Assembly: GCF_026151205.1 (NCBI RefSeq)
Contig: NC_087074.1
Coordinates: 20,267,240-20,331,239 of the forward strand
Source: Bolinopsis microptera
Lineage: Eukaryota; Ctenophora; Tentaculata; Lobata; Bolinopsidae
Direction: 5' to 3'
DNA length: 64,000 nucleotides
The notes beneath the pieces are model-generated. The model was not told the origin of the DNA and made no database searches. It was given only the letters and a program-made list of their open reading frames with translations. Positions 9,026 to 42,600 of the stretch are shown here, in pieces (the first letter of the stretch is position 1; every line of letters begins with the position of its first letter). A program made the position numbers and the translations under genes.

Positions 9026-10009
9026 TCATATGTAGCATGTGGCACTGATAGTGCCGCAAGTACGATTTTCAGCCGGCTTGTAGTAAGTTCGGTTATCATT
9101 GAAATTTCTTCCAGCATAACTACTGCCTGCTCTTTCCCCTCTTTGTGCATTGTTAAATGACTTGTTGCGACGCTCATTTTGAAATTTGAAACAGTTCTGT
9201 TTAATGTGACCTGCTTTGTTACAGTAGTGACAAACTTTCTTAGTCTTTCTTGGTGCTATGCAATTAACAGCCCAGTGGCCATATTTTCCGCAGTTAAAAC
9301 AATTTCCACTAACTTTATTAGAGTTATCAATATTAGGAGCTTCTGCTTTTAAAATTTCAATTTCGTGTCCGCCAGAAGCTTGTTTCCTGGCTTCTAAATT
9401 CTTCTCTAAATCTATAGCGTCCCGATATAAGGTTGCAAAGTCGGGTGTTTTACTATTCATTAAATGAATTGCAATTGAGTTGTTTAGTAGGCCGTACACA
9501 AAAATATTTCGTATATTTGCCTCACGAGCTGCAGATTCAGCTTCGTCGTACGCTTTGCTAGCCATCCTCTGTAATTTTCGGCCAAATTGTTCACAAGTTT
9601 CGGAGGGTAATTGCTTCATTGCAAATAGTTTTGCTCGTGCTTGCTGTCTACTGTCTGGTTCTAGAATATTTCGCAGCCTTTTTTTAAATTCAGTCCAGTT
9701 GTTTTTCTGGTCCGAATTAAGTTTAATAGCGCTCAGTTTCTCATTACTTTCTGTATCGAGATAAGTGAAAAGGAGCCTCCCACGATCCGCTTCCGGAATA
9801 TTTAAAATTCGGGCAAAATTAGACCAACTTTCCAAATATGCATTAAAGTCCTCGCCGTACTTAAAAATTTGAGGTTTCCTGCTTGCATGCGAGGTACTGT
9901 TGTCCCTCCGGAAAACTACTTTACTTAAATCACTTAACAAATTTTCTTTAGCTGCCACTTCTGTTTCTTGTTTAATTACATTAACTTGCTCTTCTGTAAA
10001 AGTTGCCAT
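9026..10009 (-). CDS. Gag-like nucleocapsid protein, Gypsy-type
   Basis: Structural protein of an LTR retrotransposon, expected to bind element RNA and assemble particles. The start chosen is the ATG giving MATFTEEQ; the frame is open further upstream to 10051. A capsid-like helical region (motifs WSNFARIL, WTEFKKRL, LPSETCEQFGRKLQRMA) is followed by two CCHC zinc knuckles, CFNCGKYGHWAVNC and CHYCNKAGHIKQNC, with all ligands intact, then a basic Asn-rich tail. The last residues (CGTISATC) are encoded by the start of the GTGGCAC repeat, so the natural C terminus is probably lost. The frame is intact, unlike copy B. No pol follows. Confidence 0.85.
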   Translation of the reverse strand: MATFTEEQVNVIKQETEVAAKENLLSDLSKVVFRRDNSTSHASRKPQIFKYGEDFNAYLESWSNFARILNIPEADRGRLLFTYLDTESNEKLSAIKLNSDQKNNWTEFKKRLRNILEPDSRQQARAKLFAMKQLPSETCEQFGRKLQRMASKAYDEAESAAREANIRNIFVYGLLNNSIAIHLMNSKTPDFATLYRDAIDLEKNLEARKQASGGHEIEILKAEAPNIDNSNKVSGNCFNCGKYGHWAVNCIAPRKTKKVCHYCNKAGHIKQNCFKFQNERRNKSFNNAQRGERAGSSYAGRNFNDNRTYYKPAENRTCGTISATCYI

Positions 10010-10264
10010 TCTTAATTTTAAACGCCATACTTGATATAAACAATACCTCAAATATCAGTGCGGTAGCAGGTTTATATGTTTGGGCTCTTCCACTTGTCGT
10101 ACTCTGCGTCGGCGGGCTCAGTCAGCAGTTTGTGTTCGTTGGGCGGGCTCTTCGTTGGGCGGGCTCTTCGTTTCTCGTCTCCAGTCTCTGTAGCTGTAGG
10201 TTGGGCGGGCTCCAGTCTCTGATGGTTTAGAGAATGTGCGTGGGCTTTTTATCCTCGTCGCCAA

Positions 10265-11032: not shown

Positions 11033-11719
11033 CTTATATTTGATCCTTCGAACAGCTGTTGAGCAATGAAACGCAAACATAATCTTAGCAAAATGAATAT
11101 ATTTCTTTTATCTTCAGCATTTAATCAGTCACATAATCTGAGAATATCAATGGTTAGTTTGAAAATGTCAAAAATTCTCATCAAAAATGTAGTAAAGTCT
11201 CAAAAAATTAATTTAGCATCTCGTAAAAATGGAATAGTTTAAAATCGGAACAAAATTAATCGCATATACTATAATAATGTGGAGTCTGCAGTAGTTCATT
11301 AAATCAAAAAGACGCAATTCAAAAATTGATAGACTGCATATATAAACAAAAAATGGACGATTTAAAAATAAAATTCGGGACACCATGAAAAATTAGCTTC
11401 CAGAAACGGAATTCACATTGTTCAGGCCAAACGGATAAAGTGTCTTCAATTTGTTAATATAAAACTGTTCTGACTTTCTAATATTATCTGGGGATGTAGA
11501 ACACAAAATATCAAAATGGAAACTTTCATTGAAAACAGATCTCTCCCTCAAATTATGAACTGAAAAAAGATGTGCCCCTAAAACATTCTCGTCATCAAAA
11601 ACTCTATGGCTCTCAACATTCCCCTTACTACTCGCCTCTAAAATCTCATAATATTTACTGCGATGACCATTCACACGTTGGCTGAGGCTGGTGACTGTTT
11701 TTCCCACGTATACGTTATT
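11033..11719 (-). mobile_element. 5'-truncated Penelope-like insertion
   Basis: A 687-bp insertion absent from copy B. It is flanked by an 11-bp direct repeat AAATACAGAAT (11022-11032 and 11720-11730) that is present once at the empty site in copy B. The minus strand encodes the C-terminal part of a GIY-YIG endonuclease: NVYVGKTVTSLSQRVNGHRS, then HLFSVHNLRERSVF and a C-terminal EQFYINKLKTLYPFGLN motif, ending near 11393. The GIY half is missing because the insertion starts within the YIG strand. GIY-YIG endonuclease at the C terminus is the hallmark of Penelope-like elements. The reading frame continues into the flank to 11755 by chance. Confidence 0.7.
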
Positions 11720-12125
11720 AAATACAGAATAAATGTTTATTAATCCACGAATCAACGCTCACGGATCGCGCTTTCTCACAAATCAACGCTCTCTTACTGA
11801 TCAGGATCTTATTCTTAGTGCTTAGTTTTACAAATTTGTTTTTTGATACACCATCAAACATGGAATAATTGCTATTGCAATGAAAGCCAAGCCTCGCATA
11901 CGAATATATGTAATTCAATTATGCATAATGGCAGGCAAAATGCAGCAATTTCATTGGACAAGAGCAACTGTTGGCGACGTTTGACTACAAATGGCAGCGT
12001 TTGATTGAAAACCTGGTTTCAGCAACCCCTGTGATTGATCAAATTATATTATTTTGCTGAGTGGTTTCTTAAAAACAATATCTTCAAGAACGCGAGCGTT
12101 GATTCGTGTATTTATTCTGTATTTA
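11720..12125. mobile_element. MITE with ~30-bp terminal inverted repeats, copy A
   Basis: The left end TAAATACAGAATAAAT... followed by CACGAATCAACGCTC is matched in inverse orientation at the right end (GAGCGTTGATTCGTG ... ATTCTGTATTTA). The interior of ~0.4 kb has no ORF of note. The Penelope insertion sits in its left terminal repeat. The intact version is at 25596-26002. Confidence 0.6.
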
Positions 12126-12235
12126 ATAAACTATCTTAGATATAGGGCAGTCGAGTTTTCTTCCTTTTTCTTTCAACGTTGGACAGCTGCACTCGTGCAT
12201 ACCGAATTTTTTGGCAGTCCTTGAAAATTAGTGCC

Positions 12236-12484
12236 ATGACAAGAAGGAGCCATTTAATAATAGGTATATTAATTCAAGTTTTCATCCTTGACCTCGTCCT
12301 CGGCTCCAATGACCCACGAGAACCCTTGTCTAAAGAAAAGGTAATAATAACCACGGAAGTGTACAAAAGTCCACCTCTTTACTCTTCGCTACGTGCAGAT
12401 TTTACGAGAGGAACGTGCAGAGATGATGTTGACTATTTCCTTCATCGGAATGTCAATGACACCTCATTCAGGGAAATGTTTTAA
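12236..12484 (+). CDS. signal-peptide exon of LDLa/7TM receptor, copy A
   Basis: First exon candidate for the receptor copy A. The ATG at 12236 opens with MTRRSHLIIGILIQVFILDL: basic n-region, then a hydrophobic core, then LGSN as a likely cleavage region. The frame continues for about 83 codons to a TAA at 12482, and a splice donor before that stop is expected but not certain. The next recognisable receptor exon is 7 kb downstream because two retroelements lie between. The conserved start and its fixed position before the LDLa exon in both copies support the link, but the join is inferred. Confidence 0.5.
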   Translation: MTRRSHLIIGILIQVFILDLVLGSNDPREPLSKEKVIITTEVYKSPPLYSSLRADFTRGTCRDDVDYFLHRNVNDTSFREMF

Positions 12485-12926
12485 TACTTTCAACACTACT
12501 ATATAACAAATAATTTTAGGCATGTACAATGGCATGACGGGCTAGGAAGTACAGCCGATCTCCTGGTATGCGGGTGCGCTGGGGTTCCTGAAGTTCGCCT
12601 CCTGAGTTAGGCTCCTCTCGCCCAGTGCTTGCACTGGGCAACAACACCTTAAACACGATGTAAGTTTCTCTTTTACTTCTTTCTCATTGATAGCTTATTT
12701 TGAATGTGAATTTTTACATCTCTGATATTGCCCCTCTTATCCTTACTCTAGCTATATTTTCACTGGCAAATTTAACTTTACTCCCGACCAGCAGTTTCAT
12801 TACACATTTTCTCGTGCCATTTTCCTTCCAGGTCGTGTTTAGTGTTGTGGGAGGTTGCCTACTCTGAGGTGTTACGGATGGTTCCCTGGCAAACTTTGCT
12901 GCCAGACTCGACAATCTCTGACAACA

Positions 12927-14297
12927 ATGATAAACCTTCAAGAGATTTTCGACTATGTCAAAGCTGCCTCAGTTGAGGATCTACGTCATATCCTTAACTC
13001 TGTTCAAAACGAGCTGCCAAAGCGTGAGGGAAAGGTGGACAATTTTGTGTTACATATAGAGGACTTCTGCGATGATGAGGTTCTCCGTGATGCGGTATGG
13101 GTTGAATGTGAGTCCCTGCAGAAACTGAACACCGAGGGAAGACACAAGGCAACAACAGCTTGGTTGTGCTCACAGGATGCACCCTATATTTACACTGACA
13201 CAAATCCAGTGCACCCACCACAGGATATCAGTGGTTTCCCTAATATCAAAAGACTCCTGAGTCTTGTAAACTCGAGTACGGAGATAACTGGACCTCTGGA
13301 CTCATGTCTGGTCATCAAGTATGGAAACAACCAAGCGAGTACTTCAATACACAATGACGGTGAGAAACTAATGGACCAGGAGAAATCGATTTGCTCTTTC
13401 TCACTGGGATGTGAACGGACGCTTGAGTTTTACGAGGGCACAACTGGGAAACCTAATTGTGTCAAGACGATAAGGATGAAGAACAACAGTCTTGTTGTAA
13501 TGCGGCCTGGGACACAGCAGAATCTGAGGCATGCTGTGCGAGCAGAGCCGGCCACAAAGGGAGAGCCTCCAAAGAAATCGGAGCAAGTAAGATACTCCCT
13601 GTCATTTCGAGCTATTGTGAAATCTGGTGGCCAAGTTAGCTCTCAGAATATCAGCACAGAGACTAGTACACCAGCTTCTGGCACCGAAGCCCAAGTACCT
13701 GCGCAAAGAGTCACGTTGGTTGCTGGAGACTCTTATGCTCAAAGATTGGACTCCGCAAAGCTGGGAAAAGGGAAAGTCACAGTCGTAAATGTTGCAGAAG
13801 GCGGAGCAAAAATGGACAAAGTCCAGAAACAGTTGGAGGACTACTGCACGGCACATCCTGATGTCCACGTTAAGAAGCTTCTGATCAGCGTAGGCACAAA
13901 CGATATTAGGCGTGTGGGGGATATTGGTATTTTGAGGGGACCAGTAAAGCAACTTTTTGGTAAGATAGGCCTATTATTTCCCAACTGTAAGGTATATGTT
14001 CAATCTCTATTGCCATTACCTTTACAGAATGATAACGATAAATTAACTAACAAGAGGGTAATGGATTTTAATAGGATTTTATACAATGAGTGTGTATTTA
14101 GGAGGTTCTTTTTCATGGATGTGTTTTATCCCTTTACAAAGTTTAAGAGAGCTCTAAGTGAGCCTGTTAAGAGATTTGATCCCTTATTTGAGAACAAAGG
14201 CATTCACCCCAATCCTCAGAAAGGTATGGGTGTGATGGCCAGATTTTATATTCGTGCCATCCACAGTAGATATTTTAATCCTTATATCTATCAGTAG
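12927..14297 (+). CDS. LINE ORF1: AlkB-like dioxygenase fused to SGNH esterase
   Basis: 456 aa from the ATG at 12927 (A at -3); the frame is open back to an ATG at 12855. Residues below count from 12855. The N-terminal ~100 aa are unassigned. Residues 150-254 match the AlkB-type 2-oxoglutarate/Fe(II) oxygenase core: LVIKYGN, IHND with metal ligands H166 and D168, SICSFSLGCERTLEF, NSLVVMRPGTQQNLRH with ligand H226, and RYSLSFR giving the 2OG-binding R246 and R252. A linker follows, then residues 286-470 form an SGNH/GDSL hydrolase: GDSYAQ (S293), AEGG (G316), GTND (N349), GIHPNP (H451). The usual Asp three residues before that His is Lys. Esterase domains in CR1 ORF1 proteins are established; AlkB is known for oxidative removal of alkyl groups from nucleic acids. 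Activity on the element's RNA or cDNA is inference. No frame damage seen. Confidence 0.85.
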   Translation: MINLQEIFDYVKAASVEDLRHILNSVQNELPKREGKVDNFVLHIEDFCDDEVLRDAVWVECESLQKLNTEGRHKATTAWLCSQDAPYIYTDTNPVHPPQDISGFPNIKRLLSLVNSSTEITGPLDSCLVIKYGNNQASTSIHNDGEKLMDQEKSICSFSLGCERTLEFYEGTTGKPNCVKTIRMKNNSLVVMRPGTQQNLRHAVRAEPATKGEPPKKSEQVRYSLSFRAIVKSGGQVSSQNISTETSTPASGTEAQVPAQRVTLVAGDSYAQRLDSAKLGKGKVTVVNVAEGGAKMDKVQKQLEDYCTAHPDVHVKKLLISVGTNDIRRVGDIGILRGPVKQLFGKIGLLFPNCKVYVQSLLPLPLQNDNDKLTNKRVMDFNRILYNECVFRRFFFMDVFYPFTKFKRALSEPVKRFDPLFENKGIHPNPQKGMGVMARFYIRAIHSRYFNPYIYQ

Positions 14298-14379
14298 TTC
14301 TTTTGTGCTGTCTTCTGAACCTTGTTAAGCTAATGATATGCAGTTGTAGTCTGGCAAGTATACTCACCTGTAAAACACC

Positions 14380-17300
14380 ATGATCGATTTAGTAACATAC
14401 AGATTTAGAGTTGGAGTGTTTAGTGGAAATTCTTTTGCAAAATCCATCAAACATCAGAACCGTAGACGTGGTACAGGTAGTATTTTTGATTATTTAGACA
14501 GCTGCATTGATTCTCGCTTATTATTTTATATTTTTTATGTTATATTCATATGTCACTTTTCGCTAATCACTATCACATATGTCGGGGTAAGTGGGTTGGC
14601 TTTTTCTAGGGTCACTTATGATTGCCGAGCCTTTGTACCAACATACCCAGTTCCTAACTTGTGCCGATGCTTTACAGTTTATTTCTTTTTATATTTAGCA
14701 AATATGTATTATCTGAGGAATAATTACAGTTTCGATGGTTTATATAGATTTTGCCAGATTTCAATCCATAAGAACTTAAATTGCATATTTACTGGTAGAA
14801 CCGGCAATACACTCACGGGATGCATAATTTGGTTGTTTTTGATGAATGGTTTTTTGATAGTTTTAGTAAACCCTGGAATTGTAAACCCAGGGCCGTCTCC
14901 CATAGGTGTTAGAGTTGGGAATGGTAATAAATTGAATGTTTACTTTCAGAATGTTCAAGGTCTCATCCCTTTTGGTGAACTGAACAATGCCCATCCAATG
15001 ATTGATACCACTAAATGTCTTGAAGTGTCGACTTATCTTAATGAGGCTAAGATAGATATTGCAATACTTAACGAAACCTGGTTTAAGAGTTCTATTGCTG
15101 ATAGTGAATTTCTGCACCCTGACAGATATTAGATATTTCGCTCTGATAGATCGAATAAAACTCATCCACCAGATCCTTCTAATCCAACCCGGTTTAGGAG
15201 GAATGGTGGAGGGGTCATGATTGCAGTGAGAGCAGACCTTGATCTAACTTCAAAGGAAGTTCGTCTCAAGTATGGTGCAGAAATTCTTGCTGTGGAATTT
15301 AAGACCTCCACTGGAATTAAGTTTGTTGTATGCACATGTTATCGTGTTGGTACACTGGGCTCCGCAAATCATGAAAAAATTGTTGAGTCTTTGAAAACTC
15401 TTCTCAGAAGAAGAGGACTGAGTAAAGTCTTCATACTAGGAGATTTTAACCTGACCGGAGTTTCCTGGTCTACCCTGGCCAGCTCCTGTCCTATTGAGCA
15501 ATCTTTTGTTGAATCTTTTGTTGATCTAGGCCTTCAACAATGTGTGTTAACACCTACCCACTTCAAAGGCAAAACACTTGACCTATTGCTCACAAACTCT
15601 GTGTCAAATATTAATGACCTAATGGTAGGTGAGAGAGATAGTGCTTGCAAGTCTGACCACTTCCCCATCAATTTTAAGATCAACGTTAAAGTTGGTAGGA
15701 AGAAGCCAGTCAGGCGTATGTGCTATAACTTTAAGACTGTGAACTGGGAGAGGCTAAACCATGAACTCCGACACACGAATTGGGATGCATTGCTCAATGG
15801 CACAGAACCTGAAATTGGATGGAAAAAATTTAAGGACAAACTTTTTAATGTCACAGATAAATTTGTTAAAAAATGCTCTGTCAAGACTGATGGCCAAGAT
15901 CCATGGTTTGACTCGGAGTGTTATGATGCATGGCGTAAGAAAGTGAGATTACATAAAGAAAGGCATAAAAGTGATAGAGCTGAAATTGCATTCTCCCTTG
16001 CAGTTGCTAGGAAAAATTTCAAAAATGTGGTTGCTCAAAAAATGAGGGAAACATTAAATGAATCTGATGATAGTGCTTTAATAACAAAAAAATTTTGGTC
16101 CTATGTCAAATCGAAGACAGCTAGTCAGCGGATCCCTGAGTTTGTAAGCCACAAAGGCACTGTCCGCAACTGCCCTGAAGACCAGGCCAACCTATTTAAT
16201 GACTTTTTCTTCGAGCAGTTCTCTGAGGCATCAACTTATGACATAGATATAGATTACTCTAATGATTGGCGCTTTGATATTGAATTTGACCACAGAAGGG
16301 TTCGCAAAATCCTTTCCAATATTAATGCTAATAAAGCTTATGGACCTGATGGTATCCATGGGAAACTTTTGAAAAACTGTGCGGTTGGGCTCGCATACCC
16401 TATATCAATACTTTTTCATTCATGCTACAACATTGGGACACTACCAAGGGAGTGGAAACTGGGGCACATTGTACCAATATTCAAGAAAGGGGATAAACAT
16501 GAGGTTTCAAATTATAGGCCAATTTCTCTTACATGCTTAATCACAAAAGTTCTTGAACGCATAATAAGAGATGAGTTATTGGCACTTACTAATGGCATGA
16601 TCAATGACAAACAGCATGGTTTCCGAGCTGAGAGATCTTGTGCAACTAATCTTGTAGGACTGTGCGACAGCCTAGCGCTCTCACTGAATGAAAATATGAG
16701 AACAGATGTAGTCTACTTTGATTTTGCCAAAGCATTTGACTCGGTTAACCATGATCTTATATTATTTAAGTTAAAGAGCAAATTTGGTATTGATGGGAGG
16801 CTACTGAAATTCATCACTGATTATCTAAGAGACAGGCAACAACAGGTCTTGATAAGTGGCAAGTTTTCTTCTATGAGAAACGCCCAGTCTGGTGTACCTC
16901 AAGGGTCAATTTTGGGACCATTGCTGTTCATTATGTTCATTGATGATATATCAGTGGGGATTTCACCAGGCACACAACTGTCACTGTATGCCGATGATAC
17001 TAAAATTTGGCGTAAGATTGTTTCGGAGTCTGATATCCTGCGACTGCAGAAGGACATTGATTATCTCCATGACTGGTCACTTTCTAATAAAATGAGATTT
17101 CATCCCGACAAATGTAAGGTCCTCACCGTCGCAGGAAGGATATCCGAAACAGTTTCCCTCCTTAGTGTCCTACCACTCTTTAACTTTGTATACTCCATGG
17201 GAAGAATCACACTTGACTATGTTGATCATGAAAAGGATCTGGGTGTAATTGTGACATCAAATCTCGATTGGAAAGATCAGTGCTCCAAAGTCCTTTCTAA

Positions 17301-17916
17301 GGCAAACCAAAAATTAGGCATGGCGAGAAGAAATTGTTATTTTGTCCAAGACGTAAATCGTCGTAGAGTACTGTATCTCACTTTAGTGAGGAGCCTATTT
17401 GAGCATTGCTCGGTTATATGGAGACCAGTCACAAAATCCCAGATAAGCAAGCTGGAGGGCCTCCAAAAGCGTGCTATTAAGTGGATTCTTCACGAGGAGT
17501 ATATGAGTTATCCACCATCCACATACATTCAAAAATGCAGACAGCTGAAGATTATGCCGATTGAAGACCGCTTTGACTTCTTGGATCTCATCTTCTTCTT
17601 TAAAATTGTGAAGCAACATATACCTGTCACTTTACCCTCATATTTGCAACCATTTCAAGGCCACTCAAGGCTCAGAAATAGTCACATGGACTCTCTATGT
17701 TTTGTAAGCTCTATCTCACCTCGAGCAAGCTCCAACGCTTTTGCCAAGAATTTCTTCTATAGGACCCACACTAAGTGGAATCACATTCCTCTAGATATCC
17801 GTGAGATAGAGAGTATCACTGATTTTAAAAGTAAACTTTCCACTTACATGTGGGGGAAAATTATCCCGGTGGATTCGGACTCTGAACTTGACTATTCAAT
17901 AGAAACAAATCCGTAA
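14380..17916 (+). pseudogene. LINE ORF2: APE endonuclease and reverse transcriptase, one stop
   Basis: One frame from 14380 to the final TAA, interrupted by a single TAG at 15130-15132. The first ~170 codons are hydrophobic and end in NPGIVNPGPSP, a degenerate relative of the 2A-like NPGP found at this place in some CR1/L2 elements. APE endonuclease follows: FQNVQGL, LNETWF, GGGVMIAVR, LGDFNL, SDHFPI; the TAG falls inside it, just after PDRY. Reverse transcriptase motifs are intact: YRPISL, FDFAKAFDSVNHDL, GVPQGSILGPLLF, YADDTKIW, DLGVIVTSNLDW. There is no RNase H. The type is CR1/L2/Rex1. ORF2 makes the nick and copies the RNA into the target. Everything but one codon is open, so the copy is young. 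Confidence 0.9.
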
Positions 17917-18543
17917 AATAGTTTATTCAAGATTATCTATTCTTGCTGTCTGCATTCACATATTTCTCAATTTCATCTCACAGCACAATATTTTATGAAT
18001 TGATTGAATGGGTGTGTGATTTTGTTTAAAGTAACTTATTACAATTTTATAAGGGCCCATGCTTGTGCAGGAGCTGCATTTGCACTCAATATCTGTGTTT
18101 TGGTGACCCTCAGGTCCTTTGGTTACATACACTTTGTCCGAGACAATTTCAACTTTGACAATCCATGCTTAGAGGACAATATTATATTTAACTAATTTTT
18201 TTGATTTGAAACTTTTACAAAATAGCAAGTATACAAATGTACAGCAATTCGAACAAACATATAAAATGGGCCGAAATGTATAAATGCTAAAAAGCGTGGG
18301 TCAGTGAAACAAGTACAGAGGACAACTTTCAAAACAGGAGTTTTTTGGCCGCCCAAAGTCTCAATAACATCACCTCCACCTAGTAATAAAATTATGAAAC
18401 GTGAAAAGTGTGAAACAATCAAATAATAATGTATTTATATAATATAATTGTCTCTCAAATACAGATAACGTCCGTAAACTCTTAAAATATTCCTACAAGT
18501 ACATATTATACTGATCGGTGTCCGAGAAACATGAATTACGTCA

Positions 18544-19491
18544 TCATGGTGCCTTCTTAACCCGGCTACAGACCTTCCCGTTACGGATGTAGTGGTCGAG
18601 ATGAGTCTGTTCAGCCCTCTTCTTCTTCAGGTCAGTTACCACGTTCTTCCTTGCTGCACGCTCTTCACTGGATCTATCAGGACAGATCCATACATCTTTG
18701 TGTGCATCAGCCATCCTCAGTCTCCCTGTTTTCATCAGAATCTGATGAACTGCTGTTGAGCTAGGGACGGTGATCTTGACTGGTCGGATAGCCGTGATAC
18801 CTGGCCTCTTCCAGCCGACTCTAGTCGCTTCAAAATGAGGTTTCTCCCCGATCTCCTCCAATACTGCGGTTACCAGAGCTGGAAGCTGTTCTCCATCCTC
18901 TTCTTTCAGTCCAAACACTATCAGATTCTTGCTCCTGTCCTCCTCTGCAGCCACACTCTTTATTACATTCTTCAGAATTTTACTGTTGCAGACCGCGCCA
19001 TTTGTGCTGTTCTTTTGTACAGCGGCACTGTAGCTCTTAATCCCTGTCTCCACCGTTGTTTGTACTGTCTCTTCAACTGACGTCTTAAACAACTGTAGTT
19101 GTTCGTCCTTCTGCACTAGCAACTGGTCCTGCAACCTGACCATCTTTTCCTTGTCTGCTATTGCTTCCGTCTTGAGGCACTCAACGATTTCCATCATAGC
19201 GCTCATCTGACTACTCTGCCGTCGAACGAGGTCTGCTGCTTCCATAACCCATTCTGCCATATACCTTTTATAGATAGACGGAGACATGAGTATTTCTTTG
19301 TCCATATCTCCACGAATTTCGAAGTTTTCTACTTTCAGTTGTCTTGCCATTGAGGTGAACCATCTATCAGCACATCCCTCTACATCTTCCTTTTCTTCAT
19401 AGTTGAAATCCTTGAGTTTCTTCTGAGATCGGGTCAAATGTAAATCATCCTCCGTGGTATACATTGTATAGTAATGTACAAGTATACACAC
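18544..19491 (-). CDS. orphan LINE ORF1-like RNA-binding protein
   Basis: 315 aa on the minus strand, opposite to the neighbouring LINE. Middle part is a Gln/Glu/Lys-rich probable coiled coil (MVRLQDQLLVQKDEQLQLF). It is followed by an RRM-like fold (SKNLIVFGLKEEDGEQ, ATRVGWKRPGITAIRPVKIT, HQILMKTGRLR) and the basic tail phrase DVWICPDRSSEERAARK typical of the C-terminal domain of many LINE ORF1 proteins. Such proteins coat LINE RNA. No ORF2 lies downstream on this strand: between 17918 and 18540 there is no endonuclease or RT. The piece resembles an ORF1-only derivative, like HAL1 elements in mammals. The frame is intact from a likely ATG at 19464-19466 or the upstream one at 19489-19491. 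Confidence 0.75.
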   Translation of the reverse strand: MCILVHYYTMYTTEDDLHLTRSQKKLKDFNYEEKEDVEGCADRWFTSMARQLKVENFEIRGDMDKEILMSPSIYKRYMAEWVMEAADLVRRQSSQMSAMMEIVECLKTEAIADKEKMVRLQDQLLVQKDEQLQLFKTSVEETVQTTVETGIKSYSAAVQKNSTNGAVCNSKILKNVIKSVAAEEDRSKNLIVFGLKEEDGEQLPALVTAVLEEIGEKPHFEATRVGWKRPGITAIRPVKITVPSSTAVHQILMKTGRLRMADAHKDVWICPDRSSEERAARKNVVTDLKKKRAEQTHLDHYIRNGKVCSRVKKAP

Positions 19492-19624
19492 GCAAAGGCT
19501 TACTACGCGGTAGCAGCAAACTGAATTTATCGCAAAATTACAACATTGTGTAAACTTGTATGTAATTGACTGATTTGAAAGATTTCAATAAAAAAAATAC
19601 AATAGACCATTTTATAACAACATA

Positions 19625-21596
19625 ATGAAGAATAGGGACACATTACTTCGATCACCTGAAGATATTCATGCTTGCCCCATGTCGATACACATATATCCAG
19701 TATTGGACACAACAAATTGGACTTGTTTGATCCCTGTATATTACGTCTGTGATGGTTTCTCTGACTGCTTAACTGACGAGTGTGATTGCGGAGGGGAGAC
19801 TACCGAGCAGTCAGTAAACCAGACTCCGATTTTCTACTGTGCTCAACAGCCTGGATGTGTCTCATTTCCACAGGTAACGAAAACATAAGAAAATATTTTT
19901 CTTTATGAATACAACAGTGCGAATGATCACAGATTATTAACTCCCCACTTGTTTATCGCACGTTTCTAATAATAATAAACATATCCCTGTCTGTTTTATG
20001 AATATGACTGCACCTCCCACCTCAGATTTGCGATAACATAGAAGACTGTTTAGACGGTAGTGACGAGAGTTTCTGTTCAAACAACGATCAAATAGAACAG
20101 AATAGTTTAAAAAGGGACAATCCAGTTGCGCAATGCATAAACAATTACAGTCTTCCTGAAAATAACATATGGCTTTACCAGCATGAGCAGTTAATAATGT
20201 TCTGTGAAAATAATTGCAGCAGTTATTTTTCAAAATCAGATCAATGGTATAAGTTTTGCAAGCTCCTAGGCTTTAACCATATTTCAATTCCTGCACTATA
20301 TTTGTGTCATTATATGCCTAGCCTGGAATCAATTTGTGACAATAAAATAGACTGTACAAATGGTGAAGATGAAGTTGGATGTCCGGGCAGATTCTACTGC
20401 TATAACCACCTTGAAAATGTGTCTACAAGCGAAAGGACATTGTCGGTTTCACCGGATAAGAAATGCGATCAAGTTAAAGATTGCCCAAATAATATGGATG
20501 AGTGTAATATTGACTGTGACCTAGGCAACATAGCTTCTCCAAAATCCCTCATAAAATCGAATGCTCTCTCGTGTTCAAATCTCATCTTTGGATTAGCTGT
20601 TTTGATTCTGAATGTAAAGAACGGTTATAAAGCAATGAAACGCACAGCCACTAATGTTATTGCGAAAACTGATAGACTTCTTTGCATACAAATATTTGCA
20701 TATGACTTTATGATGGGAGTTTATCTTTGCTTCATCGTGCTGGCATCCCTCGTTCTCCGATAACTGGAGGCTATTGTGTACGCTCTGACTGGTGGAGGTC
20801 GAGCGTTTACTGCGATATTTTGGGGGTGATCTTCTCTTTTGCAAGTCACGGATCTCTCTTGATAGTTTCTTTGATGAGTATTGTAAGGAGCATCCAGTGC
20901 ACTGTATCATTTATCAGGATTCCTTATAAAGCCATAATTTTAAGTTCCTGCATCATTTTCACCCTGAACTTGATTCATGCAATACTTCCAGTTGTAAAGC
21001 TTCCCCTAATTGAACACATCTTCAAATCGAAAATCTTCATGGTGAACATTGCCGAAAATCCCTTGTTGAGCTCCTTTGATGAACAGAACATAACAGATCT
21101 GCATAACAAATTCTTTCCAAACCAGACTACTGAGTACATTACAACGATGCTGGATGATTTGAAGCAAATAACAAATATGCCTGAGATCTTCGACTTCAGA
21201 ATGATTGGGTATTACGGGACCACGCCAATTTGCATAAGCAATATATTCAAGGATCAGGAATCTTACCGAGCTTTTAAAATTGGATATTGTACTGCCATAT
21301 CTGTGCTGTTAGCTGTAGTTTCAGTATCATATATTTTAATAGTGGTGAAGCATAACAAGTCAGCAGCAATTGCAAACGACAACCAGGGAGATCATCAGCA
21401 AAACAAAGACCTCCTTATCAAGGTTTGCTTGATGATCGGATCTCAACTGGTAAGCTGGGTGTCCCTAATAATAACCGCTAACTATTTCATCGGCACTGAC
21501 GGAAGTTCTGTACCAGAATATGTATTTGAAGTTTTCGCCCTGTTTGTGATGCCCATCAACAGTTTGCTTAACCCAATATTTTACAGTGATATGTAA
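19625..21596 (+). pseudogene. LDLa-repeat 7TM receptor, copy A (frameshifted)
   Basis: Rhodopsin-family GPCR resembling relaxin/LGR-type receptors but without leucine-rich repeats. Exon 19625-19873 (donor GTAACG) and exon 20026 onward (acceptor after CACCTCAG) join in phase 0. Four LDL-receptor class A-like modules are visible: VCDGFSDCLTDEC, ICDNIEDCLDGSDESFC, ICDNKIDCTNGEDEVGC and KCDQVKDCPNNMDEC. TM1 and TM2 follow (NLIFGLAVLILNV, IFAYDFMMGVYLCFIVLASL). At 20760 two bases are missing relative to copy B, giving a TAA after VLR. TM3-TM7 continue in another frame from about 20764, ending in the NPxxY-like region LLNPIFYSDM. There an extra 7 bp (TAATATG) makes a second stop and removes the C-tail. 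Both lesions are absent from copy B. Confidence 0.85.
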
Positions 21597-21984
21597 TATG
21601 TATAAAATTGTCAAGCAGAATGGTTCATATATTATTAGTGCTATTGTTACTAGAATTAACAAAAGAGTTAATCCATCTGACCAAACAGCAGAGTATGAAA
21701 TGAACAATATCAATCGGCCATGAATTTAACAGACTGAGGAAAGCTGACGAATATATCATAACATTAACATATTATATGAATAATATGGGTCAGAAGTATT
21801 GACACAAATATAGGTAAAAGCATTTACCGCTATGACCGTAAAATGTAAAATAAACAAAATGTCGCTTGTTTTTCTATCAACATTTACCTTGATTAACATC
21901 AGTAATCGTGTGCTATTCATGCTGCTGATATTATACACTGTGGAGCCTTTTATCTGCTCAAGAGGGTTTATGCCAAGGATAAGC

Positions 21985-23336
21985 ACATTGCAGTGAATTT
22001 AACAAAAAAAAATAGAATAAAAAAAAGAGAAAACAAATTTGACAACGTATTCAGTTTTGGGATATGATTAAGCTGCTGTATGTTAGTTTTTATTATATAT
22101 ATGTTCGTTTTGTTAGTCAGCTGTTTTATTAATTGTGTGTTATTCAATATTCATGTTGCTAATACGTATACACTATTCAGCTGTTAAATTTTTGCTCATT
22201 CTATTTGCTTCAGAATAAAATTTAACAAAAAATCAGAATAAAGAAAGAGAAAAAAAAATTGGCAACGTAGTCAGTTTTGGGATATGATTAAGCTGCTGTA
22301 TATTAGTTTTTATGTTCCGTTTTGTTAGTCAATTGTTTTATTAATTGTGTGTTATTCAATATTCATGTTGCTAATACTTATACACTATTCAGCTGGTAAA
22401 TTTTGCTCTTTTTTATATTTGCTTAAGAATAAAATTTAACAAAAATCAGAATAAAGAAAGAAAAAAAATTTGGCAACGTATTCAGTTTTGGGATATGATT
22501 AAGCTGCTGTATATTTGTTTTATGTTCCGTTTTGTTAGTCAGTTGTTTAATTAATTGTGTGTTATTCAATATTCATGTTGCTAATGTTTATATACTATTC
22601 AGCTGTTAAATTTTTGCTTAAGAATAAAATTTAACAAAAAATCAGAATAAATAAAATGAGAAAAAAATTGTCGTTGACAACGTATTCAGTTTTGGGATGA
22701 GATAAAGCTGCTGTATATTAGTTTTTATGTTCCGTTTTGTTAGTCAGTTGTTTTATTAATTGCGTGAATATACGTTGTTCAATATTTATGTTGCTAATAT
22801 TTATTAACCTGGGGACCCCAGGCTATTATATTTATGTTCATAATCCGAATGGAAATTTGGCGGAATGACATGCTGAGCGCCGGCCAGTAAATATTTATAT
22901 ACCATTCATCTGTTAAATTTTTGCTCTTTTTATTTTGTATTTGCTGGAGAGTTATATAAAATTAAACAAAAAATCAGAAAAAAAATTTGACAACGTACTC
23001 AGTTTTTGGATATGATTATGATAAAGCTGCTGTATATTAATTATATTATTATTAGTTTTTATGTTCCGTTTTGTTAGTCAGTTGTTTTATCAATTGTGTG
23101 TTATTCAATATTTATGTTGCCAATATTTGATATCTATATACTATTCAGCTGTTAAGTTTTTGCTCTTTTTATTTGTTTAAGAGTAAAATTTTACAAAAAA
23201 TCAGAATAAAGAAAAAGAGAAAAACAAATTTGACAACGTATTCAGTTTTGGGATGAGATAAAGCTGCTGTATATTAGTTTTTATGTTCCGTTTCATTAGT
23301 CAGTTGCTTTATTATTTTTGTGTTATTCAATTCAGA
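21985..23336. repeat. ~210-bp satellite, third array
   Basis: Six units between receptor copy A and the start of the second duplication copy. The last three units are nearly identical to those at 8238-8935, including the GGGGACCCC variant. The array is therefore both the right border of copy A and the left border of copy B, as expected for a tandem segmental duplication mediated by recombination between satellites. Confidence 0.85.
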
Positions 23337-23402: not shown

Positions 23403-24384
23403 TCATATGTAGCATGTGGCACTGATAGTGCCGCAAGTACGATTTTCAGCCGGCTTGTAGTAAGTTCGGTTATCATTGAAATTTCTTCCAGCATAACTAA
23501 TGCCTGCTCTTTCCCCTCTTTGTGCATTGTTAAATGACTTGTTGCGACGCTCATTTTGAAATTTGAAACAGTTCTGTTTAATGTGACCTGCTTTGTTACA
23601 GTAGTGACAAACTTTCTTAGTCTTTCTTGGTGCTATGCAATTAACAGCCCAGTGGCCATATTTTCCGCAGTTAAAACAATTTCCACTAACTTTATTAGAG
23701 TTATCAATTTTAGGAGCTTCTGCTTTTAAAATTTCAATTTCGTGTCCGCCAGAAGCTTGTTTCCTGGCTTCTAAATTCTTCTCTAAATCTATAGCGTCCC
23801 GATATAAGGTTGCAAAGTCGGGTGTTTTACTATTCATTAAATGAATTGCAATTGAGTTGTTTAGTAGGCCGTACACAAAAATATTTCGTATATTTGCCTC
23901 ACGAGCTGCAGATTCAGCTTCGTCGTACGCTTTGCTAGCCATCCTTTGTAATTTTCGGCCAAATTGTTCACAAGTTTCGGAGGGTAATTGCTTCATTGCA
24001 AATAGTTTTGCTCGTGCTTGCTGTCTACTGTCTGGTTCTAGAATATTTCGCAGCCTTTTTTTAAATTCAGTCCAGTTGTTTTTCTGGTCCGAATTAAGTT
24101 TAATAGCGCTCAGTTTCTCATTACTTTCTGTATCGAGATAAGTGAAAAGGAGCCTCCCACGATCCGCTTCCGGAATATTTAAAATTCGGGCAAAATTAGA
24201 CCAACTTTCCAAATATGCATTAAAGTCCTCGCCGTACTTAAAAATTTGAGGTTTCCTGCTTGCATGCGGTACTGTTGTCCCTCCGGAAAACTACTTTACT
24301 TAAATCACTTAACAAATTTTCTTTAGCTGCCACTTCTGTTTCTTGTTTAATTACATTAACTTGCTCTTCTGTAAAAGTTGCCAT
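23403..24384 (-). pseudogene. Gag-like protein, copy B (2-bp deletion)
   Basis: Same Gag as at 9026-10009, nearly identical, with both CCHC knuckles. Two bases (GA) are missing near 24267 within GCATGCGGTACT, where copy A reads GCATGCGAGGTACT. This splits the frame so that only the first ~45 codons are read before a shift. The 3' end again runs into the GTGGCAC foldback remnant. Copy A is intact, so the lesion arose after duplication. Confidence 0.85.
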
Positions 24385-26112: not shown

Positions 26113-28298
26113 ATGACAAGAAGGAGCCATTTAATAATAGGTATATTAATTGACACCTCAATGACACCTCATTGACATACAATAGACCATTTTATAACAA
26201 CATAATGAAGAATAGGGACACATTACTTCGATCACCTGAAGATATTCATGCTTGCCCCATGTCGATACACATATATCCAGTATTGGACACAACAAATTGG
26301 ACTTGTTTGATCCCTGTATATTTCGTCTGTGATGGTTTCTCTGATTGCTTAACTGACGAGTGTGATTGCGGAGGGGAGACTACCGAGCAGTCAGTAAACC
26401 AGACTCCGATTTTCTACTGTGCTCAACAGCCTGGATGTGTCTCATTTCCACAGGTAACGAAAACATAAGAAAATATTTTTCTTTATGAATACAACAGTGC
26501 GAATGATCACAGATTATTAACTCCCCACTTGTTTATCGCACGTTTCTAATAATAATAAACATATCCCTGTTTGTTTTATGAATATGACTGCACCTCCCAC
26601 CTCAGATTTGCGATAACATAGAAGACTGTTTAGACGGTAGTGACGAGAGTTTCTGTTCAAACAACGATCAGATAGAACAGAATAGTTTAAAAAGGGACAA
26701 TCCAGTTGCGCAATGCATAAACAATTACAGTCTTTCTGAAAATAACATATGGTTATACCAGCATGAGCAGTTAATAATGTTCTGTGAAAATAATTGCAGC
26801 AGTTATTTTTCAAAATCAGATCAATGGTATAAGTTTTGCAAGCTCCTAGGCTTTAACCATATTTCACTTCCTGCACTATATTTTTGTCATTATATGCCTA
26901 GCCTGGAATCAATTTGTGACAATAAAATAGACTGTACAAATGGTGAAGATGAAGTTGGATGTCCGGGCAGATTCTACTGCTATAACCACCTTGAAAATGT
27001 GTCTACAAGCGAAAGGACATTGTCGGTTTCACCTGGATAAGAAATGCGATCAAGTTAAAGATTGCCCAAATAATATGGATGAGTGTAATATTGACTGTGA
27101 CCTAGGCAACATAGCTTCTCCAAAATCCCTCATAAAATCGAATGCTCTCTTTTGTTTAAATGTCATCTTTGGATTAGCTGTTTTGATTCTGAATGTAAGG
27201 AACGGTTATAAAGCAATGAAAGGCACAGCCACTAATGTTATTGCGAAAACTGATAGACTTCTTTGCATACAAATATTTGCATATGACTTTATGATGGGAC
27301 TTTATCTTTGCTTCATCGTGCTGGCATCCCTCGTTCTCCGATATACTGGAGGCTATTGTGTACGCTCTGACTGGTGGAGGTCGAGCGTTTACTGCAATAT
27401 TTTGGGGGTGATCTTCTCTTTTGCAAGTCACGGATCTCTCTTGATAGTTTCTTTGATGAGTATTGTAAGGAGCATCCAGTGCACTGTATCATTTATCAGG
27501 ATTCCTTATAAAGCCATAATTTTAAGTTCCTGCATCATTTTCACCCTCAACTTGATTCATGCAATACTTCCAGTTGTAAAGCTTCCCCTAATTGAACACA
27601 TCTTCAAATCGAAAATCTTCATGGTGAACATTGCCGAAAATCCCTTGTTGAGCTCCTTTGATGAACAGAACATAACAGATCTGCATAACAAATTCTTTCC
27701 AAACCAGACTACTGAGTACATTACAACGATGCTGGATGATTTGAAGCAAATAACAAATATGCCTGAGATCTTCGACTTCAGAATGATTGGGTATTACGGG
27801 ACCACGCCAATTTGCATAAGCAATATATTCAAGGATCAGGAATCTTACCGAGCTTTTAAAATTGGATATTGTACTGCCATATCTGTGCTGTTAGCTGTAG
27901 TTTCAGTATCATATATTTTAATAGTGGTGAAGCATAACAAGTCAGCAGCAATTGCAAACGACAACCAGGGAGATCATCAGCAAAACAAAGACCTCCTTAT
28001 CAAGGTCTGCTTGATGATCGGATCTCAACTGGTAAGCTGGGTGTCCCTAATAATAACCGCTAACTATTTCATCGGCACTGACGGTAGTTCTGTACCAGAA
28101 TATGTATTTGAAGTTTTCGCCCTGTTTGTGATGCCCATCAACAGTTTGCTTAACCCAATATTTTACAGTGATATGTATAAAATTGTCAAGCAGAAATGTT
28201 CATATATTATTAGTGCTATTGTTAATAGAATTAACAAAAGAGTGAATCCATCTGACCAAACAGCAGAGTATGAAATGAACAATATCAATCGGCCATGA
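26113..28298 (+). pseudogene. LDLa-repeat 7TM receptor, copy B (frameshifted)
   Basis: Nearly identical to copy A. The signal-peptide exon is truncated: ATGACAAGAAGG at 26113 is retained, but the hydrophobic core is cut at TATATTAATT and replaced by a short GACACCTCA tandem scar. The LDLa exon ends at 26453 and the next exon starts at 26606 with the same splice sites. An extra T at about 27034 shifts the frame and stops at 27038-27040, inside the fourth LDLa module. The remaining frame to 28298 holds all seven membrane segments and an intact C-terminal tail (YKIVKQK ... EYEMNNINRP). So B keeps the 7TM part that A lost, and A keeps the ectodomain that B lost. Confidence 0.85.
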
Positions 28299-28574
28299 AT
28301 TTAACAGACTGAGGAAAGCTGACGAATATACCTCATAACATTAACATATTATATGAATAATATGGGTCAGAAGTATTGACACAAATATAGGTAAAAGCAT
28401 TTACCGCTATGACCGTAAAATGTAAAATAAACAAAATGTCGCTTGTTTTTCTATCAATATTTACCTTGAATAACATCAGTAATCGTGTGCTATTCATGCT
28501 GCTGATATTATACACTGTGGAGCCTTTTATCTGCTCAAGAGGGTTTATGCCAAGGATAAGCACATTGCAGTAAA

Positions 28575-29980
28575 TTTAACAAAAAAATAGAATAAAGAAA
28601 AAGAGAAAACAAATTTGACAATGTATTCAGTTTTTGGATATGATTAAGCTGCTGTATGTTAGTTTTTATGTTCCGTTTTGTTAGTCAGTTGTTTAATTAA
28701 TTGTGTGGTATTCAATATTCATGTTGCTAATACTTTTATACTATTCAGCTGTTAAATTTTCGCTCTTTTTTTGTTGTTTAAAAATAAAATTTAACAAAAA
28801 ATCAAAGCAGAATGAAGAAAAAGAGAAAAAAAAAATTGACTGCATATTTAGTTTTGGGATATGATAAAGCTGCTGTATATTAGTTGTTATGTTCCGTTTT
28901 GTTAGTCAATTGTTTTATTAATTGTGTGTTATTCAATATTCATGTTGCTAATACTTATATACCTATTCAGCTGTTAAATATTTGCTCATTTTATTTGCTT
29001 CAGAATAAAATTGAACAAAAAATCAGAATAAAGAAAGAGAAAAAAAAATTGGCAACGTATTCAGTTTTGGGATATGATAAAGCTGCTGTATATTAGTTTT
29101 TTGTTCCGTTTTGTTAGTCAATTGTTTTTGTTAGTCAATTGTTATTCAATATTCATGCTGCTAATACGTATACACTATTCAGCTGTTAAATTTTTGCTCA
29201 TTTTATTTGCTTCAGAATAAAATTTAACAAAAAATCAGAATAAAGAAAAAGAAAAAAAAATTGGCAGTGTATTCAGTTTTGGGATATGATTAAGCTGCTG
29301 TATATTTGTTTTATGTTCCGTTTTGTTAGTCAGTTGTTTAATTAATTGTGTGTTATTCAATATTCATGTTGCTAATACTTATATACTATTCAGCTGTTAA
29401 ATTTTTGCTCATTTCATTTGCTTAAGAATAAAATTTAACAAAAAATCAGAATAAAGAAAGAGAAGAACAAATTTTACAACGTATTCAGTTTTGATTTCTC
29501 TTGGAGAATTTCTCTTTAGACTCTTAACTTGCGAACAAATTGAAGCAGCAAACTTTAGGCTAGAAACTTTATTGTTTTCAATTCAATAAAGTTTCTAGCC
29601 TAAAGTTTGCTGCTTCAATTTGTTCGCAAGTTAAGAGTCTAAAGAGAAATTCTCCAAAAGAAATCAAGTTCAAATGCGACTCATAAATATAGCCCCCTTG
29701 AACTATGTATTCAGTTTTGGGATATGATAAAGCTGCTGTATATTAGTTTTTTGTTCCGTTTTGTTAGTCAATTGTTTTATTAATTGTGTGTTATTCAATA
29801 TTCATGTTGCTAATACGTATACACTATTCAGCTGTTAAATTTTTGCTCATTCTATTTGCTTCAGAATAAAATTTAACAAAAAATCAGAATAAAGAAAGAG
29901 AAAAAAAAATTGGTAACGTATTCAGTTTTGGGATATGATTAAGCTGCTGTATATTTGTTTTATGTTCCGTTTTGTTAGTT
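28575..29980. repeat. ~210-bp satellite, fourth array
   Basis: About six units with the same landmarks as the first array, interrupted by a hairpin element at 29491-29667 and ended by a retroelement fragment at about 29979. Confidence 0.8.
29491..29667. repeat. 84-bp-arm hairpin inserted in satellite
   Basis: Arms 29491-29574 and 29584-29667 are reverse complements with one mismatch seen, around a 9-nt loop. The insertion interrupts a satellite unit right after GTATTCAGTT. Unrelated in sequence to the palindrome at 7911. No ORF. Confidence 0.75.
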
Positions 29981-39601: not shown

Positions 39602-42600
39602 GTATCATCCAGCACTACATTCCCCGACTGTGTCCTCTGTCTGTGCTCCTTGTCGTCCTGTACCAGGTCCCCGGACTGTGCCCTCTGTCTGTGCTCCTTG
39701 TCGTCCTGTACCAGGTCCCCCGACTGTGTCCTCTGTCTGTGCTCCTTGTCGTCCTGTACCAGGTCCCCGGACTGTGTCCTCTGTCTGTGCTCCTTGTCGT
39801 CCTGTACCAGGTCCCCGGACTGTGTCCTCTGTCTGTGCTCCTTGTCGTCCTGTACCAGGTCCCCGGACTGAGTCCTCTGTCTGTGCTCCTTGTCGTCCTG
39901 TACCAGGTCCCCGGACTGACGGACTGTGTCTGTGCTCCTTGTCGTCCTGTACCAGGTCCCCGGACTGTGTCCTCTGTCTGTGCTCCTTGTCGTCCTGTAC
40001 CAGGTCCCCGGACTGTGCCCTCTGTCTGCGCTCCTTGTCGTCCTGTACCAGGTCCCCGGACTGTGTCCTCTGTCTGTGCTCCTTGTCGTCCTGTACCAGG
40101 TCCCCGGACTGTGTCCTCTGTCTGTGCTCCTTGTCGTCCTGTACCAGGTCCCCCGACTGTGCCCTCTGTCTGTGCTCCTTGTCGTCCTGTACCAGGTCCC
40201 CGGACTGTGTCCTCTGTCTGTGCTCCTTGTCGTCCAGCACTACATTCCCCGACTGTGTCCTCTGTCTGTGCTCCTTGTCGTCCTGTACCAGGTCCCCGGA
40301 CTGTGTCCTCTGTCTGTGCTCCTTGTCGTCCTGTACCAGGTCCCCGGACTGTGTCCTCTGTCTGTGCTCCTTGTCGTCCTGTACCAGGTCCCCGGACTGT
40401 GCCCTCTGTCTGTGCTCCTTGTCGTCCTGTACCAGGTCCCCGGACTGACGGACTGTGTCTGTGCTCCTTGTCGTCCTGTACCAGGTCCCCGGACTGTGTC
40501 CTCTGTCTGTGCTCCTTGTCGTCCTGTACCAGGTCCCCGGACTGTGTCCTCTGTCTGTGCTCCTTGTCGTCCTGTACCAGGTCCCCGGACTGTGTCCTCT
40601 GTCTGTGCTCCTTGTCGTCCTGTACCAGGTCCCCGGACTGTGTCCTCTGTCTGTGCTCCTTGTCGTCCTGTACCAGGTCCCCGGACTGTGCCCTCTGTCT
40701 GTGCTCCTTGTCGTCCTGTACCAGGTCCCCGGACTGACGGACTGTGTCTGTGCTCCTTGTCGTCCTGTACCAGGTCCCCGGACTGTGTCCTCTGTCTGTG
40801 CTCCTTGTCGTCCTGTACCAGGTCCCCGGACTGTGCCCTCTGTCTGTGCTCCTTGTCGTCCTGTACCAGGTCCCCGGACTGACGGACTGTGTCTGTGCTC
40901 CTTGTCGTCCTGTACCAGGTCCCCGGACTGTGTCCTCTGTCTGTGCTCCTTGTCGTCCTGTACCAGGTCCCCGGACTGTGCCCTCTGTCTGTGCTCCTTG
41001 TCGTCCTGTACCAGGTCCCCGGACTGTGTCCTCTGTCTGTGCTCCTTGTCGTCCTGTACCAGGTCCCCGGACTGTGTCCTCTGTCTGTGCTCCTTGTCGT
41101 CCTGTACCAGGTCCCCGGACTGTGCCCTCTGTCTGCGCTCCTTGTCGTCCTGTACCAGGTCCCCGGACTGTGCCCTCTGTCTGTGCTCCTTGTCGTCCTG
41201 TACCAGGTCCCCGGACTGTGTCCTCTGTCTGTGCTCCTTGTCGTCCTGTACCAGGTCCCCGGACTGTGTCCTCTGTCTGTGCTCCTTGTCGTCCAGCACT
41301 ACATTCCCCGACTGTGTCCTCTGTCTGTGCTCCTTGTCGTCCTGTACCAGGTCCCCGGACTGTGCCCTCTGTCTGTGCTCCTTGTCGTCCTGTACCAGGT
41401 CCCCGGACTGACGGACTGTGTCTGTGCTCCTTGTCGTCCTGTACCAGGTCCCCGGACTGTGTCCTCTGTCTATGCTCCTTGTCGTCCTGTACCAGGTCCC
41501 CGGACTGTGCCCTCTGTCTGTGCTCCTTGTCGTCCTGTACCAGGTCCCCGGACTGTGTCCTCTGTCTGTGCTCCTTGTCGTCCTGTACCAGGTCCCCGGA
41601 CTGTGTCCTCTGTCTGTGCTCCTTGTCGTCCAGCACTACATTCCCCGGACTGTGTCCTCTGTCTGTGCTCCTTGTCGTCCAGCACTACATCCCCCGGACT
41701 GTGCCCTCTGTCTGTGCTCCTTGTCGTCCACCACTACATTCCCCGGACTGTGCCCTCTGTCTGTGCTCCTTGTCGTCCTGTACCAGGTCCCCGGACTGTG
41801 CCCTCTGTCTGTGCTCCTTGTCGTCCTGTACCAGGTCCCCGGACTGTGCCCTCTGTCTGTGCTCCTTGTCGTCCTGTACCAGGTCCCCGGACTGTGTCCT
41901 CTGTCTGTGCTCCTTGTCGTCCTGTACCAGGTCCCCGGACTGTGCCCTCTGTCTGTGCTCCTTGTCGTCCTGTACCAGGTCCCCGGACTGTGTCCTCTGT
42001 CTGTGCTCCTTGTCGTCCTGTACCAGGTCCCCGGACTGTGCCCTCTGTCTGCGCTCCTTGTCGTCCAGTACCAGGTCCCCGGACTGTGCCCTCTGTCTGC
42101 GCTCCTTGTCGTCCTGTACCAGGTCCCCGGACTGTGTCCTCTGTCTGTGCTCCTTGTCGTCCTGTACCAGGTCCCCGGACTGTGTCCTCTGTCTGTGCTC
42201 CTTGTCGTCCTGTACCAGGTCCCCGGACTGTGTCCTCTGTCTGTGCTCCTTGTCGTCCTGTACCAGGTCCCCGGACTGTGCCCTCTGTCTGTGCTCCTTG
42301 TCGTCCTGTACCAGGTCCCCGGACTGTGCCCTCTGTCTGTGCTCCTTGTCGTCCTGTACCAGGTCCCCGGACTGTGTCCTCTGTCTGTGCTCCTTGTCGT
42401 CCTGTACCAGGTCCCCGGACTGTGCCCTCTGTCTGCGCTCCTTGTCGTCCTGTACCAGGTCCCCGGACTGTGCCCTCTGTCTGTGCTCCTTGTCGTCCTG
42501 TACCAGGTCCCCGGACTGTGTCCTCTGTCTGTGCTCCTTGTCGTCCTGTACCAGGTCCCCGGACTGTGTCCTCTGTCTGTGCTCCTTGTCGTCCAGCACT

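Follow-up and report, generated by a model that had tools for sequence, protein, structure and literature searches.

An AlkB-type dioxygenase domain joined to an SGNH hydrolase domain in the ORF1 protein of a LINE from Bolinopsis microptera

Introduction

The proteins encoded by the first open reading frame (ORF1) of long interspersed nuclear elements (LINEs) are viewed as RNA packaging proteins. A 64,000-nucleotide stretch of the genome of the ctenophore Bolinopsis microptera (contig NC_087074.1, positions 20,267,240 to 20,331,239 of the forward strand), referred to here in full as the window, raises the question of what an AlkB-type dioxygenase domain may be doing in such a protein. The plus-strand frame at 12927-14297 encodes the ORF1 protein of a LINE that was active recently, with a helical N-terminus, an AlkB domain and an SGNH domain of the membrane/lipid type beside an ORF2 with an apurinic/apyrimidinic endonuclease (APE)-type endonuclease and a reverse transcriptase (RT); we regard it as practically certain that this arrangement is kept across families together with its iron and 2-oxoglutarate (2OG) residues.

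Esterase ORF1s are described in the available part of PMC4120745 as the type IV ORF1s of CR1 and L2 elements, and the available part of PMC3905857 adds RTEX and Penelope-like elements. The latter text, on the esterase of ZfL2-1, singles out such esterases as the only ORF1 proteins with an enzymatic function. In a limited search of the literature, we found no AlkB domain in a LINE (a retrotransposon without long terminal repeats, LTRs) or in a Helitron.

Architecture of the element

ORF1 is intact, with its ATG at 12927 and its stop at 14295-14297, and encodes 456 amino acids; an in-frame extension upstream to 12855 gives a version of 480 amino acids. Residues are numbered here along protein P0001, whose residue 1 lies at 12858, one below the numbering of the first-pass annotation of this DNA. 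Four parts can be told apart on the plus strand. Residues 24-59 (12927-13034) form a helical segment, and AlphaFold2 places helices at 15-23, 27-36 and 39-63. The AlkB, or 2OG-Fe(II) dioxygenase, domain follows at residues 60-255 (13035-13622), then a linker of low conservation at residues 256-283 (13623-13706), with a predicted local confidence (pLDDT) below 50 at 258-277, and finally the SGNH/GDSL hydrolase domain at residues 284-479 (13707-14294). PF13532 matches residues 98-251 with an E-value of 4.7e-16 and a score of 60 bits against a curated cut-off of 31.2. For PF13472, which matches residues 291-454, the E-value is 9.4e-11 and the score 43 bits against a curated cut-off of 32.9, so that a chance match is excluded for both domains.

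ORF2 (14380-17916, plus strand) begins with an ATG at 14380, 82 nt after the ORF1 stop. It matches Exo_endo_phos_2 at 15328-15669 and RVT_1 at 16492-17127. The first-pass annotation had reported an intact frame with an AlkB signature followed by SGNH blocks, 82 nt before an APE/RT ORF2 on the same strand. Its coordinates proved exact, its two ORF1 domains score above the Pfam cut-offs and its ORF2 domains were matched as well, but it did not mention the single in-frame stop that interrupts ORF2 at 15130-15132. Two ORF2 relatives, P0119 and P0120, are uninterrupted frames of 1177 and 1176 amino acids.

The main body of the LINE, comprising the 5' untranslated region (UTR), ORF1, ORF2 and most of the 3' UTR, spans 12479-18197 on the plus strand by blastn comparison with eight genomic copies, to which it is 99.4-99.6% identical. 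The copy alignments begin at window positions 12477-12482 in five of the eight and at 12515-12521 in the other three, and they reach 18197 in all four copies that were fetched to their 3' side. Four whole copies measure 5765-5770 nt each, giving an element of about 5.8 kb. An APE-type endonuclease with an RT in ORF2, 5' truncations and an A-rich 3' end mark it as an APE-type LINE; the clade name CR1/L2 is applied to it by resemblance only and not by placement of the RT.

Conservation of the AlkB-SGNH pair

A search of the Bolinopsis genome (264,652,675 bases in 232 contigs) with P0001 gave at least 92 matches belonging to several families, with 89 of 704 first-look candidates scored. Twelve of these are full-length at 98-100% identity, ten of them without an internal stop; five more are full-length at 80-81% and one at 67%, and the remainder are at 29-51% or partial. 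Among 20 loci that were fetched, the AlkB part belongs to the ORF1 match in 19 (only the SGNH end is left in L026), and in each of the 20 a same-strand ORF2 match lies at most 0.7 kb downstream, split or fragmentary in L014, L015, L016, L021, L024, L026, L027 and L028.

The reverse search with ORF2 gave at least 40 matches (39 of 6930 candidates scored). All 19 listed matches that start at ORF2 residue 1, on ten contigs, lie behind an ORF1 match, at a distance of 85-86 nt from its end with the stop included. The AlkB-SGNH pair is therefore conserved beside the same ORF2 in other copies and is not a one-off capture. Of the remaining 21 listed matches, 20 begin within ORF2 and the last, at C6:10771001, belongs to a split copy as its second part; 5' truncation is usual for LINE copies. 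ORF1 and ORF2 identities rank differently across families: L018 is nearest to L020 and L025 in ORF1 (46-47%) and to L022 and L023 in ORF2 (49%), a discrepancy that hints at ORF1 exchange.

Beyond this genome, 117 ORF1 relatives were found in the protein collection at E <= 0.001, within length limits of 0.55-1.75 of the query, a range in which short ORF1s with SGNH only could not appear. Alignment A2 holds the window protein and 91 relatives, with 26 omitted as partial, fused or short, and includes proteins that share as little as 31% identity with the window ORF1. In it, the metal ligands H165, D167 and H225 (codons at 13350-13352, 13356-13358 and 13530-13532, plus strand) are each present in 92 of 92 proteins, and the 2OG residues R245 and R251 (codons at 13590-13592 and 13608-13610, plus strand) each in 90 of 92. 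H165, D167, H225 and R245 are also invariant in the 28 rows of alignment A1, which includes five of the omitted proteins (P0064, P0104, P0106, P0110 and P0114). At E <= 0.01, GDSL_2 is matched by 92/92 and PF13532 by 76/92 of the ORF1s in A2, and 13 of the 16 without a PF13532 match, taken as one profile, match ALKBH3 at 1.6e-9. Two gene models of Mnemiopsis leidyi join an ORF1 of this type to an ORF2 of this type: the ORF1 part of P0064 covers 62% of the query at 57% identity, and P0140 is 88% identical to the window ORF2 over 68% of ORF2.

Within the Bolinopsis genome, the metal and 2OG residues, as well as E169, are kept in all 19 intact ORF1s (the window copy and 18 loci, the broken L016 and L026 being omitted). 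Selection was estimated as the ratio of nonsynonymous to synonymous substitution rates (dN/dS) from pairs of intermediate divergence, since copies that are almost identical and pairs deep enough to be saturated carry no information. Between L009 and L013, the latter from the 80% sister family, the ratio is 0.148 for the AlkB domain (dN 0.13, dS 0.88), 0.097 for the SGNH domain and 0.451 for the linker. The metal ligands are thus not free to vary among copies, and the retention of iron and 2OG ligands over such divergence points to an enzyme.

Identity of the two domains

The AlphaFold2 model gives the AlkB domain the jelly-roll fold of its family, and both the models and profile comparisons place it beside ALKBH2 and ALKBH3, which are the nearest by profile, with no ALKBH5 or FTO chain among the matches listed. 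It shares with these two enzymes the fold, the HxD...H and RxxxxxR motifs and a Glu at the fourth position past the first metal His, which we take to contact the base in ALKBH2/3; this residue, E169, is kept in 91 of 92 aligned ORF1s. Set apart from them are its fusion within a LINE ORF1, RYSLSFR in place of RxNLTFR, a missing Asn of the NxY motif, and a position on a separate branch from the ALKBH2/3-like genes of the same genome. The domain is called ALKBH2/3-like rather than a member since the Asn positions of both motifs are changed.

The SGNH domain carries its block residues S292 in 92/92, G315 in 88/92, N348 in 91/92 and H450 in 92/92 of the aligned ORF1s, and in the intact genomic ORF1s the oxyanion Gly is replaced by Ser in four of 19. 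The catalytic Asp expected three residues before the His (DxxH) is not conserved, position 447 being N in 29 proteins, G in 16, S in 12, W in 9, K in 8, R in 4 and others in the rest. In the absence of this triad Asp, hydrolase activity is uncertain, and we claim the fold and not the activity. In addition, 35 of the 92 ORF1s match PF17182, the OSK domain of Oskar, whose fold is SGNH-like.

The closest known counterpart of the whole protein is presumably the type IV ORF1 of zebrafish ZfL2-1, which we take to be the source of PDB entry 4c1b: profile A6 matches chain 4c1b_A, an "ORF1-encoded protein", at 6e-7, and profile A4 at 0.022. Both elements have ORF1 upstream of an APE-RT ORF2, a helical N-terminus and a basic C-terminal SGNH domain, with an isoelectric point of 9.6-9.9 in the five families computed here versus 10.8 given for ZfL2-1 in the available text of PMC3905857. 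In contrast to ZfL2-1, an AlkB domain separates the helical part from the esterase here, the triad Asp is not conserved, and the transposon-specific H191, four residues before the oxyanion Asn, corresponds to position 344, which is S in 79, C in 11 and R in 2 of the 92 proteins. Judged from these residues, esterase activity is less sure here than in ZfL2-1.

AlkB domains elsewhere in the genome

PF13532 alone gave at least 151 matches in the genome (150 of 587 candidates scored). All listed matches but the last have E <= 3e-16 and more than 66 bits, compared with 60 bits for the window protein; by eye, these loci do not overlap the P0001 matches. The frames fall into many length classes and reach 3388 amino acids; many are long and have identical scores on several chromosomes. 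We examined eleven, picked by frame length and rank rather than at random, and found seven in LINE-type ORF1s, one in a Helitron and three in host-like genes. The last, named by motif and eye, are an ALKBH2-like gene (L033, E 8.4e-32) and two ALKBH3-like genes (L034 and L035, E 1.8e-28 and 2.9e-28). The seven ORF1-type frames (L030-L032 and L036-L039) are 550-843 amino acids long and match PF13532 at 1.1e-18 to 5.6e-23. An RVT_1 or endonuclease frame lies downstream in six of them, L032 showing only the endonuclease where the fetched stretch ends; the single downstream frame scanned at L036 gave neither an RVT_1 nor an endonuclease match, and only inspection by eye suggests an RT-like region there. 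GDSL_2 matches six of the seven at 0.0079 to 7.5e-7, all below the curated cut-off, and is seen by eye only in L037. L036 and L037 also have PHD-finger-like matches below cut-off.

In the Helitron (L029:904-6999 and L040:3-4148 on C10, one long frame), the order is reversed, with SGNH before AlkB. Its Pfam matches are GDSL_2 at 7.4e-6, below cut-off, followed by AlkB at 4.1e-21, DUF6570 at 8.1e-14 and PIF1 at 3.3e-22, together with Helitron_like_N, matched at 1e-7 in one fetched part and at 4e-10 in the other. The AlkB-SGNH pair is common to many LINE families and one Helitron in the same genome. PF13532 frames of Helitron-like length (3226, 3321 and 3366 amino acids) occur at three other loci, and two more have 2225 and 2459 amino acids.

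An IQ-TREE phylogeny of 24 AlkB domains (14 from Bolinopsis mobile elements, seven from protein relatives and three host-like; L038 and viral AlkBs left out) separates the 21 mobile-element and relative domains from the three host-like ALKBH2/3 genes with support of 98/97; L029 and L033 were flagged as long branches in this tree, and the host-like ALKBH3 pair is weakly joined (85/21). AlkB and SGNH trees of the A2 proteins show a distance correlation of 0.92. At support 0.95 they share 22 of 34 splits and contradict each other in one; conflicts amount to 4 of 46 AlkB splits at 0.9 and 19 of 64 at 0.8. The two trees largely agree, suggesting that the two domains mostly traveled together within this LINE group. 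A tentative reading, which we put somewhat short of even, is that comb jellies harbor a mobile-element AlkB-SGNH clade captured once and exchanged among many LINEs and at least one Helitron family, serving as a general anti-modification device against damage or host marks.

Predicted function and alternatives

ALKBH2 and ALKBH3 act on m1A and m3C, whose methyl groups lie on the Watson-Crick face and block reverse transcriptase. By homology, the AlkB domain would bind Fe(II) and 2OG, accept single-stranded nucleic acid and oxidize methyl groups off base nitrogens, and its kinship with these two enzymes would make m1A and m3C the likeliest targets. The ORF1 particle may then clean the element RNA, and also nascent cDNA; since such methyl groups stop reverse transcriptase, this would raise the yield of full-length insertions. 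The AlkB domain could also supply the nucleic-acid-binding part that esterase ORF1s reportedly lack, and the SGNH domain, which like that of zebrafish ZfL2-1 is basic, might tether the particle to membranes or cleave an ester. We hold with moderate confidence that AlkB chemistry on methylated bases and cleaning of element nucleic acid apply jointly.

Three findings call for caution. The Asn of the NxY motif is present at position 153 in only one of 92 ORF1s; the Asn of RxNLTFR is replaced at position 247 by S, C, A or V; and the AlkB domain appears under weaker constraint in closer pairs, with dN/dS of 0.311 (L020-L028), 0.392 (L022-L024) and 0.325 (L022-L023), each from few changes. The SGNH domain gives 0.106, 0.151 and 0.234 in the same pairs, also from few changes. 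The first-pass annotation had suggested that the element carries its own nucleic-acid demethylase. As a prediction, this is well supported by the AlkB profile match, the copies beside ORF2 and the fixed metal ligands, with an enzyme that is ALKBH2/3-like rather than ALKBH5/FTO-like by sequence, but the frame of that suggestion was too small because the pair extends to many LINE families and a Helitron.

Instead of clearing methyl groups that block RT, the domain could mainly erase host marks on the element, such as m6A in RNA and DNA marks of the 6mA or 5mC type. An ALKBH5-like m6A demethylase of orchid Ty3/Gypsy elements, active in vitro according to the available part of PMC9289625, offers a precedent, and AlkB in a DNA transposon fits removal of DNA marks better than rescue of reverse transcription, because a Helitron does not reverse transcribe. 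The nearness to ALKBH2/3 and the missing ALKBH5 or FTO chains among the matches listed argue the other way, and we consider mark erasure as the main role rather unlikely. The presence of AlkB in a Helitron favors a wider role that takes in DNA as well.

Less probable still, and in our view doubtful, is that the domain is a nucleic-acid-binding scaffold of the ORF1 particle with catalysis incidental. The replaced putative NxY and RxN asparagines and the lower constraint relative to SGNH in close pairs would fit a scaffold, as would the statement in the available part of PMC3905857 that esterase ORF1s are without a structural RNA-binding domain. A pure binder, however, need not retain H, D and H in 92/92 and R and R in 90/92 proteins down to 31% identity, nor all iron and 2OG residues in 19/19 intact genomic ORF1s. 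Chance fusion or misassembly of a host ALKBH exon in front of a LINE is refuted by the constant 85-86 nt spacing on ten contigs, by the two Mnemiopsis gene models that pair ORF1 with ORF2 and by the branching of mobile-element AlkBs away from host-like ALKBH2/3.

Two other retroelement groups offer comparisons. The orchid elements are likewise retrotransposons with an AlkB-superfamily domain, yet they differ in having LTRs, an additional ORF and an ALKBH5-type enzyme, in being titled a recent acquisition and in that no esterase is seen in the available text (PMC9289625). Bdelloid LTR retrotransposons with a GDSL ORF3, described in the available part of PMC5408684, likewise place GDSL/SGNH in a different retroelement class; these too have LTRs, and "AlkB" has no occurrence in the main text (PMC5408684).

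A conserved demethylase domain in near-identical ORF1s makes restriction of retrotransposition by base methylation testable. That AlkB has spread among LINEs and to a Helitron within one genome speaks for a common advantage in countering host or chemical modification, as well as for module exchange between transposon classes. From the recurrence of the AlkB-esterase pair, it seems that mobile DNA maintains a predicted demethylase of its own.

Other features of the window

The 3' UTR of the window copy is interrupted by a 1.35-kb insert on the minus strand (18198-19543), absent from L009-L012. It holds a minus-strand ORF of 315 amino acids (18544-19491) without a Pfam match at E 0.01. The split-off 3' end of the LINE, TTTCAAT and an A-run, lies beyond it at 19544-19597 on the plus strand; in L009-L012 this stretch comes immediately after the 18197 junction. 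No target-site duplication was recognized at these four loci.

ORF2 starts with an N-terminal extension (14380-14895, plus strand) ending in NPGP at 14884-14895. Such leaders are about 160-185 amino acids long and contain hydrophobic segments, of which each of the ten relatives computed has two or three, with NPGP following just before the endonuclease. NPGP is present in at least 93 of 120 ORF2 relatives among the matches listed and in 13/13 ORF2s examined in the Bolinopsis genome. We take this core to resemble a viral 2A peptide without DxE. The leader could possibly be membrane-anchored.

A short element resembling a miniature inverted-repeat transposable element (MITE), with inverted-repeat ends of about 25 nt, occupies 11710-12134, just 5' of the LINE. 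A gag-like ORF is present in two minus-strand copies, alike by eye, at 9026-10051 and 23403-24212; the first, which was the sole copy scanned, matches Retrotrans_gag and zf-CCHC. A direct duplication of 3.2 kb, 95% identical, covers 19597-22804 and 26177-29382, with ORFs at 20727-21596 and 26940-28298, and a 7tm_1 match slightly under cut-off was found in its first copy only. Further along, two long repeat arrays (39621-42790 and 46690-51153), both stepping by 48 bp and over 90% alike, flank a Ty3/Gypsy-like polyprotein at 42943-46143 with protease, RT, RNase H and integrase.
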